From: Rhizobium sp. Q54
GTDB lineage: Bacteria > Pseudomonadota > Alphaproteobacteria > Rhizobiales > Aestuariivirgaceae
Assembly: GCA_945889445.1 (NCBI GenBank)
Contig: CAMDBX010000015.1
Coordinates: 1 to 63,479, forward strand
DNA length: 63,479 bases
Direction: 5' to 3'
Position numbers and translations under genes: made by a program. Shown piece after piece: positions 3,377 to 35,202 of this stretch (position 1 is the first letter of the stretch; each line of letters opens with the position of its first letter). Below the pieces are notes generated by a model. It was not told where the DNA came from and did not search any database. It saw nothing but the letters and a program-made list of their open reading frames with translations.

Positions 3377-4579
3377 ATGAACCGACGGATGTTCGCATCG
3401 CTTCTCGTGCTGGCGCCCTTTCTGGGTTCGCCGGCGCTGGCCGAAGACCCGAAATTCGTGGCCTTCATCCAGAAGACGCTGTGGCCGCGCATGGAAGCGG
3501 CAGGCGTCTCACGCAAGCTGTTCGATAAAGCCTTCGCCGGCATCACCGAGCCCGACCCCGTGGTGCTGAAGCTGGCCGACAACCAGCCGGAATTCACTTC
3601 CACCACCTCCGCCTATCTTGCGAAGGCGGTAACACCCATCCGCATCGAGTCAGGCAAGCAGAAGAACCAGGACGAGGACAAGCTGCTGTCCGCCATCGAG
3701 GCGAAATACGGCGTCGACCGCTTCATCGTGCTCGGCATCTGGGGCATGGAATCAAACTTCGGCAAGGACAAGGGCTCGATGAGCGTGTTCCGCTCGCTCG
3801 CCACGCTGGCCTATTCGGGCCGCCGCAAGAAATATGCGAACGAGCAGCTGGTTTCCGCCTTCAAGATCCTCAAGAGCGGCATCGTCAGCGTCGAGGACCT
3901 CGACGGGTCCTGGGCGGCCGCCATGGGCCACACCCAGTTCATCCCGTCGTCCTACATCTCCTTCGCGGTGGACTGGACGGGAGACGGCAAGAAGGACATC
4001 TGGAACACCAGGCAGGATGCGCTGGCCTCCACGGCTAACTACCTCGCCAAGGCGGGCTGGAAGAGGGACCGGCCATGGGGCTGGGAGGTCGTGCTGCCCA
4101 AGGGCTTCAACATGGCCCTCGTCGGCCGCTCGCACTGGAAGACGGTGGCCGAGTGGCAGAAGCTGGGCCTCAAGCGCGCCGATGGCGCCAAGTTCGGCTC
4201 GCTGAACGCTGATGCCTTCGTCATGGTGCCGCAGGGCGTCAGCGGCCCGCGTTTTCTGGTGACGCGGAATTTCCTCGCCATCATGGATTACAACATCTCG
4301 CACTCCTATGCGCTGGCGGTGGGCCACCTGGCCGACCGCATCCGTGGCAAGGGCGCCTTCGTGGCCCAATGGCCCGACGTGAATTACGACCTCACCTACA
4401 AGCAACGGGTGGAACTGCAGAACCGCCTCAACGCGCTGGGCTTCGAGACCGGCGGCAGTGACGGCCGCTTTGGCGCGCGCACCTATGAGGCGATCCTCGC
4501 CTACCAGAAGAAGAACGGCCTGCCGCTTGACGGCGTGCCATCCGTGAAGCTGCTGCAGTCGCTCCAGAAGAACAGCTGA
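3377..4579 (+). CDS. Lytic murein transglycosylase (MltB/SLT_2 family) with peptidoglycan-binding domain
   Basis: A predicted periplasmic enzyme cleaving the MurNAc-GlcNAc bond of peptidoglycan to give anhydro-muropeptides. From the ATG at 3377 the 400-residue product has a signal peptide of about 22 residues (MNRRMFASLLVLAPFLGSPA). An SLT_2 domain follows, with the catalytic glutamate in GIWGMESNFGKDKGSM and MGHTQFIPSSY. A C-terminal PG_binding_1 repeat spans about residues 340-395 (GSDGRFGARTYEAI). There is no lipobox cysteine, so it is probably soluble. Its TGA overlaps the next ATG (TGATG), implying translational coupling. Confidence 0.88.
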   Translation: MNRRMFASLLVLAPFLGSPALAEDPKFVAFIQKTLWPRMEAAGVSRKLFDKAFAGITEPDPVVLKLADNQPEFTSTTSAYLAKAVTPIRIESGKQKNQDEDKLLSAIEAKYGVDRFIVLGIWGMESNFGKDKGSMSVFRSLATLAYSGRRKKYANEQLVSAFKILKSGIVSVEDLDGSWAAAMGHTQFIPSSYISFAVDWTGDGKKDIWNTRQDALASTANYLAKAGWKRDRPWGWEVVLPKGFNMALVGRSHWKTVAEWQKLGLKRADGAKFGSLNADAFVMVPQGVSGPRFLVTRNFLAIMDYNISHSYALAVGHLADRIRGKGAFVAQWPDVNYDLTYKQRVELQNRLNALGFETGGSDGRFGARTYEAILAYQKKNGLPLDGVPSVKLLQSLQKNS

Positions 4580-5679
4580 TGATCCGCTTGGCCGCCATCG
4601 CCGCCGCCGTCCTGCTCTGGGCGCTTCCCGCTCAGGCGCAGACGACTGACATGCCGGTGATGGGCTCGTCCGCCGCCAGCAGCATGGAGGACCAGCAGGT
4701 GCCGGCGGACGAGAAGACCGTGACCAGCATCCTGTCGATCGGCGATGCCATCGGCGGCGGTTTGGGCGCGGGACTTGCCCGCGTCACCGAGCCGGGCGGC
4801 GACTATGACGTGTCGATCCGCTTCAACGAGGAATCAGGATTGGCACGGCCCGAGGTCTATGACTGGCCAGTCACCGTGCCCAAGATCCTCGCGGGCAATG
4901 CCTATGACGTGATCGTGGTGATGCTGGGTGCCAACGACCGGCAGATGATCCGCAGCGGCGACATGCGCTTCGACTTCGGCACGCCGGAATGGACAGCGGC
5001 CTACACCAGCCAGGCCAAGCTGCTGCTGGACCAGCTTGTGGCATCCAAGGCCCGTGTCATCTGGGTGGCGCCGCCGCCGATGAAGGACCCCGAGTATGAC
5101 ACCGCCATGCGCAGCATCGCGGCGCTGCAAAGGCAACTGGTGGAACAGCGCGGCATGACCTATCTCGACCTCCGCCCGCAGTTCACCAACCCTGACGGCA
5201 GCTACACCGACTCGTTCACCGACGCTACGGGCACCGTTGTCAGGCTGCGCGGCCGCGACGGCATCTCCTTCTTCAAGGCCGGAAACAACCGCATGGGCGA
5301 GTTGGTGCTCGCCGCCATCGTGGCCGGCGAGGCCCCGGCGGATACTCCGGCCGACGCCCGGGCCGGCGCTCCGGCGTCCGAGAAGACTTCGCGCCTCGAC
5401 ATCCCTGAAGTCAACAAGACCGACTCGGAGGCAAGGCCCGATGCCGTGCCGATGTTCGGGCAGGCGGTGATGGATGCCGAGCCTTATACCGTGCAGCCCG
5501 ATGGCGTTACCGCCAATGCAATCCTGCTTGCCGCAGGCGACCTGGGGCCTGAGGCGGCGCTCAAGACGCTGCGCGACATTGCCCCGACGGGAAGCGGCGC
5601 GGAGCGCCTGTTCAAACTCGGGAGCCCCGAACCGGCACCCGCCGGACGGGCGGATGACTTCGCCGCCCCGGCACCCTAG
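4579..5679 (+). CDS. Secreted DUF459-like SGNH-fold protein lacking canonical catalytic residues
   Basis: A 366-residue protein with a signal peptide of about 20 residues (cleavage near LPAQA), an SGNH/GDSL-like domain over residues 50-250 and a low-complexity Ala/Pro/Asp-rich tail. Block I reads SIGDAIGGG, with Ala where the nucleophilic Ser of GDS is expected. Block III is VVMLGANDRQ, as expected. Block V reads DGISFFKAG, with Ser where the catalytic His is expected. It may therefore be a binding protein rather than a hydrolase. Tight coupling to the upstream transglycosylase suggests a role in cell-wall or glycan handling. Confidence 0.72.
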   Translation: MIRLAAIAAAVLLWALPAQAQTTDMPVMGSSAASSMEDQQVPADEKTVTSILSIGDAIGGGLGAGLARVTEPGGDYDVSIRFNEESGLARPEVYDWPVTVPKILAGNAYDVIVVMLGANDRQMIRSGDMRFDFGTPEWTAAYTSQAKLLLDQLVASKARVIWVAPPPMKDPEYDTAMRSIAALQRQLVEQRGMTYLDLRPQFTNPDGSYTDSFTDATGTVVRLRGRDGISFFKAGNNRMGELVLAAIVAGEAPADTPADARAGAPASEKTSRLDIPEVNKTDSEARPDAVPMFGQAVMDAEPYTVQPDGVTANAILLAAGDLGPEAALKTLRDIAPTGSGAERLFKLGSPEPAPAGRADDFAAPAP

Positions 5680-28532: not shown

Positions 28533-29210
28533 TCAGACGATCCCCGCCAGCTCTCCCAAATCCTTCACCAGCGCTGCCGGTTTCCCCGGCAACCGGTCAT
28601 CCTTCAATCCGAAGCGGTCCACCCGCACCACCTGGAAGCCGAACTGAGCGGCGCCATGGCTATCCCAGGTGTTGGACGTGACGAAGCAGATCGACGGCGC
28701 CTCATGGATCTGCAGCTTCTGCATGGCGTGCCGATAGACGCGGCGGGACGGCTTGTAGATGCCGACATCCTCGACCGACAGCACCATGTTGAACAGCTTG
28801 TCGAGCCCGGCGTGGCGCACCGCGGCATCAAGCATCGAGGGGCTGCCGTTGGAGAGGATGGCGGTGAGCTTGCCCTTTGCCTTCACCGCGGCGAGCGCGT
28901 CCGCCACCTCCGGATAGGCATCGAGTTTCAGGTAGAGCGCAAGGAGCTCGTCGCGCAGGCCCGGCTCGCTGACGTCGAACTGCTCCAGCGCATAATCCAG
29001 CGCATCGCCCGTCACGTGCCAGAAATCGCCGTGGACACCCATCAGGCTGCGGAGCCAGCTGTATTCCAGCTGCTTCTGCCGCCACAGCTTCGAGATGTCC
29101 TCGGCATGGGGGCCGATCTCGCCGGCGAGCTTGGCGACGGGGCCAGCCACGTCGAACAGCGTGCCATAGGCGTCGAACACACAGGCCCTGATGCCCTGGA
29201 GCTTCTCCAT
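28533..29210 (-). CDS. HAD-superfamily hydrolase, type II haloacid dehalogenase-like
   Basis: A 225-residue HAD hydrolase. The nucleophile motif [10 protein letters not shown] has the second Asp replaced by Tyr, as in L-2-haloacid dehalogenases. [10 protein letters not shown] and the lysine in [12 protein letters not shown] follow, then [14 protein letters not shown]. This fits the haloacid dehalogenase type II subfamily, though many members act on other substrates. I chose the ATG at 29210 ([12 protein letters not shown]). It is divergent from the nitrile hydratase operon across about 59 bp. Confidence 0.85.
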
Positions 29211-29269
29211 GCCGCTTCCTCTTCCGCGTTCCGCCCGGTATGATGATCGCAAACACCGAGGCTGACAAC

Positions 29270-29887
29270 ATGCCACATGACGGACATCACCACGATCACG
29301 ACCACGAGGGCTCCGAGCTTTCGCCGCTGGCGCTGAGGGTGAAGGCGCTGGAATCGCTTCTCGTCGAGAAGGGCTACGTCGACCCCAAGGCGCTCGACGT
29401 GCTGATCGACACCTATGAAACGAAGATCGGTCCGCGCAACGGCGCGCGCGTGGTGGCGAAGGCCTGGACTGACCCCACTTTCGCTGACTGGCTGAAGCGC
29501 GATGCCACCGCTGCCATCGCCTCGCTCGGCTATACCGGGCGGCAGGGCGAGCACATGGTGGCGCTGTTCAACACGCCTGAGACCCATAACATGGTCGTCT
29601 GCACGCTCTGCTCCTGCTATCCGTGGCCGGTGCTGGGGCTGCCGCCTGTCTGGTACAAATCAATGCCCTATCGCTCCCGCGCGGTGATCGAACCGCGCGA
29701 GGTGCTGAAGGAATTCGGCGTCGAGGTCCCTGACGAGCGCGAGGTGCGCGTCTGGGATTCGACCGCAGAGGTTCGCTACCTCGTGATCCCTGAACGGCCC
29801 CCTGGCACCGAGGGCTGGAGCGAGGAGCAACTCGCCGGGATCGTCACCCGCAACGCCATGATCGGCACCGGCATCGTGACGGCATGA
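29270..29887 (+). CDS. nthA: Cobalt-type nitrile hydratase, alpha subunit
   Basis: Forms the metal-containing subunit of the enzyme that hydrates nitriles to amides. The metal-binding claw is [17 protein letters not shown]; the Thr in CTLCSC is the usual sign of cobalt rather than iron. The two outer cysteines would be oxidised to sulfinate and sulfenate. From the ATG at 29270 (GAGG 8 bases upstream) the protein is 205 residues, typical length; an upstream ATG at 29240 overlaps a TATGAT -10-like sequence. The N-terminus is rich in His and Asp ([14 protein letters not shown]). It overlaps the next gene as ATGA. Confidence 0.93.
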
Positions 29888-30540
29888 ACGGCCCGCACGA
29901 CATGGGCGGCTTCACCGGCTTCGGCCCGGTGCTGCATGAGTACGACGAGCCAGTCTGGCATGACGGCTGGGAGCCGCGCGCCTTCGCGCTGGTGCTGGCC
30001 ATGGGCATGACGGGCTCATGGAACATTGACGAGGCCCGCCATGCCCGCGAGCGCCTGCCCGCGATGCAGTACTGGCGGTCGAGCTATTACGAGATGCGCC
30101 ATTTTGCGCTGATCCTGCAGCTGATCGAGCTGGGCATCGTCACCGCCATGGAGGAAGAGCAGGGCGGCATGGCCATGCCGCCGAAACCAGTGAAGCGGGT
30201 GGCGAAGGCGGAGATGATTCCGGCGATTCTCGCGTCGGGAGGACCAGCGAACCGGCCGAGCAACCTGCCGCAGGGCTTTGCGATTGACGATAAGGTCCGT
30301 GTACGGACCATCAACCCCTCCGGCCACACACGGCTGCCACGTTATGCGCGCGGCAAGGCGGGCCAGATCGTCGCGGTGCATGGCACGCATGTCTTTCCCG
30401 ATTCCAATGCGCATGGGGCAGGCGAGGATCCGCAGTGGCTCTACACCGTGCGGTTCACGGCGCAGGACCTGTGGGGCCAGGACACGAAGGACGCCGTGTG
30501 CATCGACCTGTGGGAACCCTATCTGGAGGCTGCACCATGA
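29884..30540 (+). CDS. nthB: Nitrile hydratase, beta subunit (copy 1)
   Basis: A 218-residue beta subunit that completes the active site with the alpha subunit. The N-terminal [16 protein letters not shown] and WEPRAFAL, then [11 protein letters not shown], are standard. The C-terminal SH3-like domain has [28 protein letters not shown] and DLWEPYLE. Arg residues in DEAR and GHTRLP sit where the two arginines contacting the oxidised cysteines are placed in known enzymes (my alignment from memory). ATGA overlaps on both sides indicate a tightly coupled operon. Confidence 0.93.
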
Positions 30541-31187
30541 ACGGTGCCCATGACTGCGGCGGCATGATGGGATTTGGCCCGGTGGTGGCGGAGGAGAACG
30601 AGCCCGTCTTCCACGCGCTCTGGGAGGCGCGGATGTTCGCGCTGATGTCTGCCGTGGGCGACGTCGGCGGCTGGACGCTGGACGAGGACCGCGCCGCCTG
30701 TGAGGCAATGGAGCCCGGCCACTACATCACGTCCAGCTATTACGAGCACTGGCTGAACGGCCTCGAACTGCTGCTGCAGAAGCACGGCCTCGCGACGGCA
30801 GAGGAGATCACCTCCGGCACCGCAACAACTCGTGGACAGTCTGTGACGCCGACTGCTGCTGAGGTTGTATGGCCCGCCGTCACCGCGCACGGCAGCTATG
30901 AACGCAAGGCAGATGCGACACCATTGTTCAAGCTGGGTGACGTGGTGCGCACGCGGCACCTGAACCCGGCGCATCACACCCGCCTGCCGCGCTACCTGCG
31001 CGGCCACGTGGGCGAGATCGTGGCCTGCCACGGCGCGCATGTGTTTCCGGATTCCAATTCACGCGGACTTGGCGAGGATCCGCGCCATCTCTACACCGTG
31101 CGCTTCAAGGCCTCGGACGTCTGGGGCAATGCCGCGCGCGACCTGATTCATGCCGATCTGTGGGAGCCCTACCTTGAAGCTCGCTGA
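30537..31187 (+). CDS. Nitrile hydratase, second beta subunit (paralogue)
   Basis: A 216-residue full-length beta subunit in tandem with copy 1, with the same layout: [67 protein letters not shown]. The arginines in DEDR and HHTRLP are kept, and the frame is intact, so it does not look like a pseudogene. It is clearly diverged from copy 1, especially at residues 30-60 and 95-130, so it is not a recent duplicate. It could be an alternative partner for the single alpha subunit, or part of a three-subunit enzyme. ATGA overlap with copy 1. Confidence 0.9.
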   Translation: MNGAHDCGGMMGFGPVVAEENEPVFHALWEARMFALMSAVGDVGGWTLDEDRAACEAMEPGHYITSSYYEHWLNGLELLLQKHGLATAEEITSGTATTRGQSVTPTAAEVVWPAVTAHGSYERKADATPLFKLGDVVRTRHLNPAHHTRLPRYLRGHVGEIVACHGAHVFPDSNSRGLGEDPRHLYTVRFKASDVWGNAARDLIHADLWEPYLEAR

Positions 31188-31500
31188 GTCCGAACGCCTG
31201 CCGAAGGATGCCGATGGCCCGGTCTTCGCCGAACCCTGGGAGGCGCAGGCCTTCGCCATGGCGGTGAAGCTCAACGAGGCGGGCGTCTTCGGCTGGACTG
31301 AATGGGCAGAGACGCTGGGCGCGGAGCTGAAGGCGCATCCGCTGCGGCCCTATTACGAAAGCTGGCTCGCGGCGCTGGAACGGCTGGTGCTGGCCAAGGG
31401 TGTTCTCACCGAGCAGGAGCGTCTCGCGCGCGTCGATGCCTGGGATCGCGCGGCTAAGGCAACGCCGCATGGGGCACCCATCGAACTCAACCGAGGTTGA
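31174..31500 (+). CDS. Nitrile hydratase accessory (activator-like) protein
   Basis: A small protein of about 108 residues resembling the N-terminal half of beta subunits: FAEPWEAQAFAMAVKLNEAG, FGWTEWAETLGAELKA, YYESWLAALERLVLAKG. Such accessory proteins (P14K type) help load cobalt and mature the alpha subunit. I favour the TTG at 31174, which has GGGAG 7 bases upstream; an ATG at 31150 is also possible. It overlaps the second beta gene at its 5' end and the convergent ccdA gene by 14 bp at its 3' end. Confidence 0.8.
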   Translation: MKLAESERLPKDADGPVFAEPWEAQAFAMAVKLNEAGVFGWTEWAETLGAELKAHPLRPYYESWLAALERLVLAKGVLTEQERLARVDAWDRAAKATPHGAPIELNRG

Positions 31501-32398: not shown

Positions 32399-33352
32399 AT
32401 GCGCCACCTGCCCGCCCTGCTTGCCGCCGCACTGATCACCGCCAGCCCGGCCCTGGCGGCCCCCAGGGTGGTGGCCTCGGTGGTGCCGGTCCACTCCATC
32501 GTGTCGGCAGTCATGGGTGACAAGGGCACCCCGGAACTGCTGCTGCAGGGCAGCATGTCGGAACACCGGGCGGTCTTCACCCCCTCCCAAATGGCCACGC
32601 TGGGCAACGCCGACCTCGTGTTCATCGTCGGCCATGGGCTGGAAGCGAAGCTCGCGCAGATCAGCGGCTCGGATGCGGTGAACGGCAAAAACTTTATCGC
32701 GCTCTCGGATGCACCTGGCATCAAGACACTTCCCATCCGCGAGGGCGGCACCTGGGAGGTGCATGACCACGAGCATGAACACGAGCACGAAGAGGGCGGC
32801 GAACACACCGACGACCACGCCGCCGAAGGCGTGCTGAGCTTCGACCCGCATGTCTGGCTGGACCCGGACAACGCCAAGGCCATGGCCTTGGCCGTGGCTG
32901 CCGACCTCGGCAAGGCCGACCCGGAGAATGCCGCGGCCTATGACGCCAATGCCCGGGCCTTTGCCGCGGACGTCGACAGGACGTCGTCAAGCATCGTCGC
33001 CGAACTCGCCCCGGTGAAGGACAAGCCGTTCATCGTCTTCCATGATGCCTACCAGTATTTCGAGCGGCATTTCGGCCTGTCAGGGGCGGGTTCGATCGCG
33101 GACGTCTCCGCCCAGTCACCCTCGGCGGAGCGTCTGGCGCAGGTGCGCGACAAGATCACGGCGGTGAAGGCTGCCTGCGTCTTCCGCGAGCCGCAGTATG
33201 ACGGCAAGGTCGTTGCCACCGTCATCGAGGGCACCGGCGCTAGGGAAGGCGTTATTGACCCGCTGGGTGCCGACCTCACCCCCGGTCCGCAAGCCTATCC
33301 GCAGCTTATCCAGAACCTCGGTGCAGCCCTGAAGGACTGCCTGTCGGGCTAG
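32399..33352 (+). CDS. znuA: Zinc ABC transporter substrate-binding protein ZnuA
   Basis: A periplasmic zinc-capturing protein of 317 residues. It has a signal peptide of about 20 residues (MRHLPALLAAALITASPALA) and cluster-9 solute-binding motifs: VVPVHSIVSAVMG, GMSxH-like SMSEHRAVF, DPHVWLDPDNAKAMA, and VFHDAYQYFERHFGL. A His/Glu-rich loop sits at residues 121-143 (HDHEHEHEHEEGGEHTDDH), typical of ZnuA. AAGGA lies 10 bases before the ATG. The permease and ATPase genes (znuB, znuC) are not in this window; instead zevA and zevB follow. A Zur box lies just upstream. Confidence 0.93.
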   Translation: MRHLPALLAAALITASPALAAPRVVASVVPVHSIVSAVMGDKGTPELLLQGSMSEHRAVFTPSQMATLGNADLVFIVGHGLEAKLAQISGSDAVNGKNFIALSDAPGIKTLPIREGGTWEVHDHEHEHEHEEGGEHTDDHAAEGVLSFDPHVWLDPDNAKAMALAVAADLGKADPENAAAYDANARAFAADVDRTSSSIVAELAPVKDKPFIVFHDAYQYFERHFGLSGAGSIADVSAQSPSAERLAQVRDKITAVKAACVFREPQYDGKVVATVIEGTGAREGVIDPLGADLTPGPQAYPQLIQNLGAALKDCLSG

Positions 33353-33415
33353 TTTGGCCTTCACTATTTTGCCGCATTGGCCGATCATTCCTCATCTGAT
33401 TCAGAAGGACGGACA

Positions 33416-34084
33416 ATGCAAACTGGACGCCGGGCGGTTCTTCCTGCCCTAGCCATCATTGCCTTTGGCGCGGCATCGCCCGCGCAGGCCCATCCGCATG
33501 TATGGATCGAGATGCAGTCTGACGTGGTGTTCAACGACCAGGGCCTTATTTCGGGCGTGAAGCTGACGTGGACCTTCGACGAGGGCTATGCCCAGGTGGC
33601 GCTCGACGGCCTCGACAAGAATGGTAACGGAACCTACGACCCCGAGGAACTCGAGCCGCTGACCCGCGAAAACCTGGAGTCGCTGAAGGACTACGGCTAC
33701 TTCACCCATGTGCGCTTCGCCGGCAAGATGCAGGCCATGGGAGCACCCGCCGAGTCGGGCCAGACCTACTCCGACGACAAGTTGCGGCTGCATTTCCAGT
33801 TGCCGCTGGTCACGCCCGTCGACCCTACCAAGGGCGAGTTCGTGCTGAAGGTCTATGATCCGGAGTTCTACATCTCGTTCAATTACCTCCCGGATGCGAC
33901 TGTTGCGGTGACCGGCAACATGCCCAAGGCGTGCAAGCCCGTGCTCAAGCCCGTGCCCACCGATGCCGAGGTCGAGCAGACGCGGGCCATGCTGTCTACC
34001 AAGGGCCCCGACTGGAAGCCGGATGAGCAAGAGGACTTCGGCGCGATCTTCGCCCAGCCCGTGACCATCCAATGCCAGGCCTGA
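33416..34084 (+). CDS. zevA: DUF1007 periplasmic metal-binding protein (ZevA-like)
   Basis: A 222-residue exported protein with a signal peptide (MQTGRRAVLPALAIIAFGAA) and the DUF1007 start HPHVWIEMQSDVVF, whose histidines immediately follow the cleavage site and are likely metal ligands. An EF-hand-like loop, DKNGNGTYDPEE, is present. In Haemophilus influenzae the homologue ZevA works with ZevB in zinc acquisition. I chose the ATG at 33416. It overlaps the next gene by 13 bp and lies 63 bp after znuA. Confidence 0.82.
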   Translation: MQTGRRAVLPALAIIAFGAASPAQAHPHVWIEMQSDVVFNDQGLISGVKLTWTFDEGYAQVALDGLDKNGNGTYDPEELEPLTRENLESLKDYGYFTHVRFAGKMQAMGAPAESGQTYSDDKLRLHFQLPLVTPVDPTKGEFVLKVYDPEFYISFNYLPDATVAVTGNMPKACKPVLKPVPTDAEVEQTRAMLSTKGPDWKPDEQEDFGAIFAQPVTIQCQA

Positions 34085-35202
34085 TCAGGCGCCTGCTGCC
34101 GGGCCTTCTGGCCCTCATCTACATGTCACTCGCGGGCGCGCCGCACGCGGTGGCGCAGACTGCCGGCGGCACGTCGGTTGAGCAGGCGCAGCCTGAGGTC
34201 AAGATCGACCGCCGCAAGCTGCTGGTGCCGCAGCGCAACGCCGATGGCAGCATCAAGGTGACGCCGTTCCTCGAAGACCCGGTGCTGTGGGCGCGCGACG
34301 AGCAGCAGCGATTCTATGGCAGGATGTCCGCCACGCTGAAGGCCATGCGCGGGCCCTCCGCCTTCGCGGCCGGTTGGACGCTCATGCTGCTGAGCTTCGC
34401 CTATGGCGTGCTGCACGCTGCGGGTCCGGGCCACGGCAAGGCGGTGATCTCGACCTGGCTGCTCGCAACCGAGAATGAACTGCGCCGCGGCGTGCTGATT
34501 TCCTTCATGAGCGCCATCATCCAGGCGCTCACGGCCATCGTGCTGGTGAGCGTGCTGTTCCTCGTGGTGGCGAGCGTTGGCTCCACCGCGCGCAACGTGG
34601 CCAGCGTGCTCGAGAGCGCCAGCTACGCGCTGATCGGGCTGCTGGGCCTCTACCTGGTCTGGACGGCGGTGCGCCTGCTGGCGGCGCGCCGCGCCGCTGC
34701 ATCCCCTGCACCCGCCGGCATCACGACGCGCCAGTCCGTGGCCTTGTCGGATTTCACCGGTTTCGAGCCGATGAAGAACCAGGCAGCGGCGGGCGGTCAT
34801 GTGCACGGCCCCGACTGCGGATGTAGCCATGCACATCTTCCGGAGGCCAAGGACCTGAAGGGTGACTTTTCTTTCCTTCGGGCGTTCTCCCTGGCCTTCG
34901 CGGTGGGCATCAGGCCCTGCACGGGTGCGATCCTGGTGCTCGTCTTCGCCAATGGCTTGGGACTGTACTGGGCGGGCATCGCCTCCACCTTCGCCATGGC
35001 GCTCGGAACCTTCATCACGGTCTCCGTCATTGCCGCCATCGCCGTCTATGGCAAGAAGCTGGCGGCCAGGCTGGTGCGCGGCAACTCCGGCCTTCTCGAC
35101 TGGGCGGCGATCGGCATGCGCTTTCTCGGCGGGGTTGCGATTGCCTTCCTTGGAACGATATTGTTCCTCGGCTCGTTGGGCTCCACCAACGCCATGATGT
35201 GA
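34072..35202 (+). CDS. zevB: NicO/RcnA-type metal transporter (ZevB-like)
   Basis: An inner-membrane protein of 376 residues with an N-terminal signal or anchor and about six to seven helices. NicO-family motifs are LHAAGPGHGKAVISTWLL and AFAVGIRPCTGAILVLVFA. A His/Cys-rich cytoplasmic or periplasmic loop (GGHVHGPDCGCSHAHLPE, about residues 241-258) could hold metal. The family carries nickel or cobalt, but the ZevA pairing and the upstream Zur box point to zinc here (inference). It overlaps zevA by 13 bp. Confidence 0.82.
   Translation: MPGLIRRLLPGLLALIYMSLAGAPHAVAQTAGGTSVEQAQPEVKIDRRKLLVPQRNADGSIKVTPFLEDPVLWARDEQQRFYGRMSATLKAMRGPSAFAAGWTLMLLSFAYGVLHAAGPGHGKAVISTWLLATENELRRGVLISFMSAIIQALTAIVLVSVLFLVVASVGSTARNVASVLESASYALIGLLGLYLVWTAVRLLAARRAAASPAPAGITTRQSVALSDFTGFEPMKNQAAAGGHVHGPDCGCSHAHLPEAKDLKGDFSFLRAFSLAFAVGIRPCTGAILVLVFANGLGLYWAGIASTFAMALGTFITVSVIAAIAVYGKKLAARLVRGNSGLLDWAAIGMRFLGGVAIAFLGTILFLGSLGSTNAMM

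Follow-up and report, generated by a model that had tools for sequence, protein, structure and literature searches.

How does a single nitrile hydratase α subunit come to stand beside two complete β subunits? The question is raised by an operon in a 63,479-nucleotide stretch of DNA from Rhizobium sp. Q54 (hereafter the window), in which four genes follow one another on the forward strand. The first, nthA (29270..29887), encodes an α subunit of 205 residues that matches TIGR01323 with 308.4 bits (cut-off 249.85) and Pfam NHase_alpha at 5e-88; upstream, the same frame extends open to an ATG at 29240, leaving the 5' end a little uncertain. It is followed by nthB1 (29884..30540), which encodes a full-length β subunit of 218 residues with the pocket motif YYEMRH (β1; TIGR03888, 232.8 bits, cut-off 152.2), and by nthB2 (30537..31187), which encodes a second full-length β subunit of 216 residues with the signatures DEDRxACE and YYEHWL (β2; TIGR03888, 229.6 bits, cut-off 152.2). 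The last gene, a nitrile hydratase accessory gene of the activator or self-subunit-swapping chaperone type, runs from a TTG at 31174 to 31500 (TIGR03889, 77.6 bits, cut-off 46), with an alternative in-frame ATG start at 31150, and its product is homologous to NHase_beta_N (Pfam, 1.2e-12). NCBIfam equivalog cut-offs served as the criterion for these assignments and all four proteins exceed them, which, with coordinates read directly, bears out an initial sequence-only reading that had recognized nthA, two complete tandem β genes and an activator-like gene. That reading had also put every overlap at 4 bp or so; the α/β1 and β1/β2 overlaps are exactly 4 bp, but the overlap of β2 with the accessory gene is 14 bp from the TTG or 38 bp from the ATG.

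The α subunit carries the metal motif CTLCSC, which we take to be the cobalt-type form, and both β subunits carry R52 and R149 (Pseudomonas putida numbering), to which we ascribe a role at the metal site. Together with the α and β equivalog matches, these features predict a nitrile hydratase (EC 4.2.1.84), and the TIGR03889 match within the operon fits the cobalt type that is served by a swapping chaperone. Judged from these features, the operon probably encodes a cobalt-type nitrile hydratase in the order α-β-activator, plus an additional β gene. The best solved relative of the α subunit is the P. putida Co-type α subunit (3qxe_A), and P. putida Co-type entries are also the best solved matches of both β subunits. 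The N-terminus of α (29270-29320) is rich in histidine (HHHDHDH), a trait shared by the P. putida α subunit, and this tail may have a metal-handling role. Each of β1 and β2 contains both NHase_beta_N and NHase_beta_C, which rules out a split-β nitrile hydratase; as originally proposed, the two share the C-terminal domain as well as the DExR and HTRLP motifs. The window genome is 99.6% complete and holds a single α gene and no β genes besides these two, so the β subunits must share the α subunit, or one of them goes without.

Tandem full-length β genes are uncommon. Within the window's family, 39 of 69 genomes have a TIGR03888 match and 13 of the 69 have two adjacent full-length β genes (two of the 39, G009 and G028, show only a partial β at a contig end); within its genus, 23 genomes have a match and 11 of them carry the tandem. 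An even sample of the order (n=397) contains 153 genomes with a match and seven adjacent pairs, counted by eye, of which four belong to the window's family (G000, G001, G034 and G054) and three to a family here called f38 (G105, G145 and G208). Apart from the window's own, no adjacent full-length pair was seen by eye in the class sample (96 of 385 genomes with a match) or in the phylum sample (52 of 398). The family, order, class and phylum samples overlap, and the systematic sampling covers Pseudomonadota. Within that scope the arrangement is rare and is conserved in one family, the Aestuariivirgaceae. The same tandem occupies the same locus in independent genomes, including that of the isolate Aestuariivirga litoralis KCTC 52945, and these syntenic copies rule out an assembly artefact or chance. 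A single α gene accompanies the tandem in 15 of 16 genomes (61-100% complete), the exception being G105, which has two. Two plasmid searches returned 133 and 136 records, all below 60% identity; in the first, at most eight records had more than one matching place, and in the two that were examined the best place was an ordinary single-β operon. Outside the window's family, no match to β2 exceeded 56% identity in the order sample (the best being in G191), and six such matches (L236 and L238-L242, that of G191 among them) carry the ordinary motif and not DEDRxACE. Two other unusual layouts were encountered. At locus L139 (G639), one strand bears a full β gene, an α gene, a β gene split into N and C halves, and an accessory gene truncated at the locus end, so that one α gene lies between two β sets; at L133 (G327), a stop falls between the two domains of a β gene that is either broken or newly split.

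The two β genes appear to have been maintained separately for a long time. Pairwise dN/dS ratios calculated by the Nei-Gojobori method for six close tandem operons are 0.07-0.10 for α, 0.11-0.25 for β1, 0.09-0.27 for β2 and 0.10-0.24 for the accessory gene. Among six more distant β2 genes the ratio is 0.11-0.28, some of these comparisons approaching saturation at synonymous sites; comparisons involving the β1 of a genome without β2 yield 0.14-0.19. None of the 14 genes checked contains an internal stop. As judged from codon comparisons, both β genes are under purifying selection and neither is decaying; the ratios rule out a decaying second copy. The fast-decaying second lineage that the sequence-only reading had set against its own proposal is not what is found, since β2 is constrained, free of internal stops and part of a clade of 12 rows. 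The β2 proteins of four loci (L103, L184, L185 and L186) are shortened to 199-200 residues, mainly because the interdomain linker is partly missing.

A tree of 94 β subunits, whose bootstrap is not fully settled, places the second β subunits of 12 family genomes in one clade (100/96), which is joined by the first β of G145 (97/91); in family f38 the β gene order is swapped, with the β2-like gene first. The window-type first β subunits form a separate clade (100/99) that includes the single β subunits of G012, G011 and G026. A recent tandem duplication is rejected, as forcing the window-type first and second β subunits into one clade is 89.7 log-likelihood units worse (p-AU 0.007). By this phylogeny, β1 and β2 are anciently diverged. 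Adding the first β subunits of G105 and G208 to the second-β clade gives a grouping that is absent from the best tree but is not rejected (p-AU 0.38), and the tandems may or may not share a single origin. The 4-bp β/β overlap recurs in all 13 loci with a β2-clade gene. Taklimakanibacter lacteus (L016, G054) also has a tandem of two full β genes (4326-5654); its two β subunits group with two single β subunits of relatives (100/99), which marks this pair as an independent duplication.

The operon also exists without its second β gene. At the same locus, L005, L010 and L199 have α, β1 and the accessory gene and lack β2. In an α tree of 62 rows, L005 falls in one set with the window and two tandem loci, L003 and L006 (98/82), and L199 lies inside a clade with four β2-bearing operons (100/98). 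In the corresponding genomes (G012, G025 and G026, 99-100% complete), β2 matches only their single β and the accessory gene. Conversely, every β2-clade gene in the rows of the trees has a companion β; for genomes of the order sample whose matches were not turned into loci, similarity to β2 was the only criterion. The absence of β2 from the shared locus is most simply read as loss, the alternative being repeated gain. The best reading of this pattern is that β1 would be the resident subunit and β2 an optional extra, kept or lost by lineage. The neighborhood is shared by both forms: operons with β2 (e.g. L003, L006 and L009) and without it (L005 and L010) alike lie between a HAD-type hydrolase gene and a group of CcdA-like, ZnuA, DUF1007 and NicO genes. 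In the window, the HAD-type gene is a haloacid dehalogenase type II-like gene (28533-29216, reverse strand; TIGR01428, 194 bits, cut-off 125) that lies divergently beside nthA. Homologues hold this place in many single- and double-β family operons and in the three f38 loci, and are missing from it in L195, L196 and L202. Family relatives keep the downstream ZnuA, DUF1007 and NicO genes (32399-35202; NicO is of a nickel-transport family) in synteny, and none was seen in the f38 loci; the three genes possibly supply metal to the enzyme.

The two β subunits are about 50% identical overall. Their difference had been placed at residues 30-60 and 95-130, and only the latter region stands out, as the linker (residues 91-135) is the most divergent stretch, with 7 of 45 residues identical, whereas residues 31-60 (13 of 30 identical) are only slightly below average. 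Individual positions were compared in an alignment, in P. putida numbering, of 189 unique full β subunits, comprising 12 β2, nine window-type β1 and 168 others including that of P. putida; 188 come from the loci, a coverage filter having removed partial and split β subunits, and loci after L232 are excluded. R52, E56, Y68 and R149 are invariant in all 189 sequences, Y215 is present in all β1 and β2, and W46 in both β subunits; titles of structure entries record solved mutants at R52, R157, E56, H71 and Y215. Position 72 is tryptophan in all 12 β2 and in 166 of the 168 other β subunits, but arginine in all nine window-type β1; the two remaining exceptions, L103 and L186, are first β subunits adjoining a β2. 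Window-type β1 subunits have a fixed M71-R72-H73 (9 of 9), as compared to H71-W72 in β2, and the fixed β1/β2 differences are A/D at 51, R/C at 55, M/H at 71 and H/L at 73. H71 is not general, most other β subunits having isoleucine or lysine there, and position 37 varies inside both groups. Residues β37, β68 and β72 are described as lining the substrate tunnel or pocket (PMC7193024), and gating residues β46 and β129 are also described (PMC9297474). With equivalence to the published tunnel residues taken from numbering, the β differences at tunnel or pocket positions would fit alternative substrate ranges. Single-chain models of moderate confidence (pLDDT 77-78, pTM 0.55-0.56) agree with a nitrile hydratase β fold for both proteins, the best Foldseek match being 3qz9_B in each case (β1, E 7.8e-20, global TM-score 0.47; β2, E 2.1e-19, global TM-score 0.64).

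The closest known system is the Co-type enzyme of P. putida NRRL-18668 (α, β and P14K; 3qxe), which is described with the same α-β-activator order (PMC3511329). It likewise has the histidine-rich α N-terminus, but a single β. The AnhD-AnhE-AnhA system of Streptomyces canus resembles the window in that one α subunit is reported with two beta-derived proteins; however, AnhD corresponds to the N-terminal part of a single β and AnhE to its C-terminal part, both proteins are needed, the gene order differs, and the authors report finding no activator gene (PMC7329996). Cyanobacterial split-β operons, present at 10 of the 11 loci L064-L074 (L071 differs), likewise comprise α, two β-related genes and an accessory gene, but there each β-related gene encodes one half of a β subunit, N or C, and neither encodes a full one. 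Thiocyanate hydrolase, which consists of three kinds of chain, had been offered as a loose parallel. This enzyme (2dd4) belongs to the nitrile hydratase family, and its 2dd4_A and 2dd4_C chains are matched by the window's proteins. The likeness proves weak, as the match of its α chain is confined to the C-terminal part of the β subunits and its β chain presumably matches the N-terminal part, whereas the window's β subunits are both complete. The enzyme itself is ruled out for the window, where α scores 172.3 bits against a γ cut-off of 291.45 (TIGR03887). The H- and L-nitrile hydratases of Rhodococcus rhodochrous J1 are two complete enzymes with their own α subunits, unlike the one α and two β subunits of the window. 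They are a described case of two nitrile hydratases in one organism (PMC5482477), and β-α fusions have been described as another unusual arrangement (PMC3323583). The sequence-only reading had considered its arrangement new, and in open-access PMC full text, with subscription literature outside the search, we found no report of two full β subunits with one α; mentions of two β subunits there refer, where seen, to ordinary stoichiometry or to another complex (PMC12005783, PMC4009401).

We favor, as a reasonably probable account, an operon in which one α subunit and one accessory protein serve two alternative β subunits, giving alternative enzymes with β2 optional. P14K of P. putida is described as forming an α(P14K)2 complex, taking up cobalt and passing α on (PMC3511329). 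By analogy, the accessory protein would load cobalt into α and swap it onto a β subunit. Either β would accept α, so that α-β1 and α-β2 enzymes would occur in one cell. As part of the substrate tunnel is formed by β, α-β1 and α-β2 might hydrate different nitriles, β2 offering the usual W72 pocket and β1 the altered M71-R72-H73 pocket. For P. putida nitrile hydratase, both an αβ and an (αβ)2 form have been reported (PMC4009401), and the latter implies that a tetramer could in principle contain two unlike β subunits; mixed α2β1β2 tetramers may thus form too. Against the favored account, G011 (74% complete), G012 and G026 are window-type relatives that show the R72 β alone, so that the R72 pocket does not seem to require β2 now; position 37 is variable in both groups, and α with β2 was never seen without another β. 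A bolder version, which we hold only tentatively, is a combinatorial nitrile hydratase in which the accessory protein deals α to two competing β subunits that set the substrate range, with mixed tetramers bearing two unlike active sites. On that version, the loss of W72 only in β subunits whose lineage has β2 would be a trace of division of labor.

The same loss could instead speak for an obligate enzyme of three subunits, a heteromer of α, β1 and β2 (e.g. α2β1β2) that works only as a whole, as could the presence of another β beside the β2-clade gene in 13 of 13 loci and the 4-bp overlaps, which suggest coupled production. This obligate form, one of two explanations that the sequence-only reading had offered, is disfavored because syntenic relatives lack β2: closely related α subunits occur without it (L005 in the 98/82 set, L199 in the 100/98 clade), and nearly complete or complete genomes (G012, G025 and G026) show no β2. 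We regard it as unlikely. That several lineages lack β2 at the orthologous locus, in operons without visible damage, would also suit plain redundancy or dosage, with both β subunits doing the same job on the same substrates, and the separate β duplication in T. lacteus points the same way; the long separate conservation of the two β subunits with different fixed pocket residues tells against it, and it too has a low probability. If one β were instead non-catalytic, a second, chaperone-like partner for maturation or stability, it would have precedents in the accessory proteins, themselves relatives of the β N-domain, and in AnhD of S. canus, a partial β reported to be a swapping chaperone (PMC7329996). 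This is quite improbable, given that a regular accessory gene is already there and that neither β subunit has lost its C-terminal domain or the conserved arginines. Least probable is a β1 whose substrate has shifted to something other than a nitrile, or to a very different one, with ordinary nitrile hydratase activity left to β2 alone; the fixed M71-R72-H73 in nine of nine window-type β1 would fit such a shift, but β1, not β2, is the copy retained when one remains, and it is constrained there (dN/dS 0.15-0.19).

The alternative-β reading is the best supported by the comparisons made here, with the three-subunit reading disfavored, and one α with two different β subunits holds as first described, the genome having a single α and the β subunits being intact and separately conserved. 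Nitrile hydratases are used as industrial catalysts (PMC7193024). If one α subunit is served by two diverged β subunits, the operon would be a natural test of how β alone sets the substrate range, and of whether holo-α is exchanged between β isoforms during maturation. The variant of a known enzyme that the operon encodes is real, conserved and narrow in distribution, and within one bacterial family it is a conserved departure from the rule of one α and one β.
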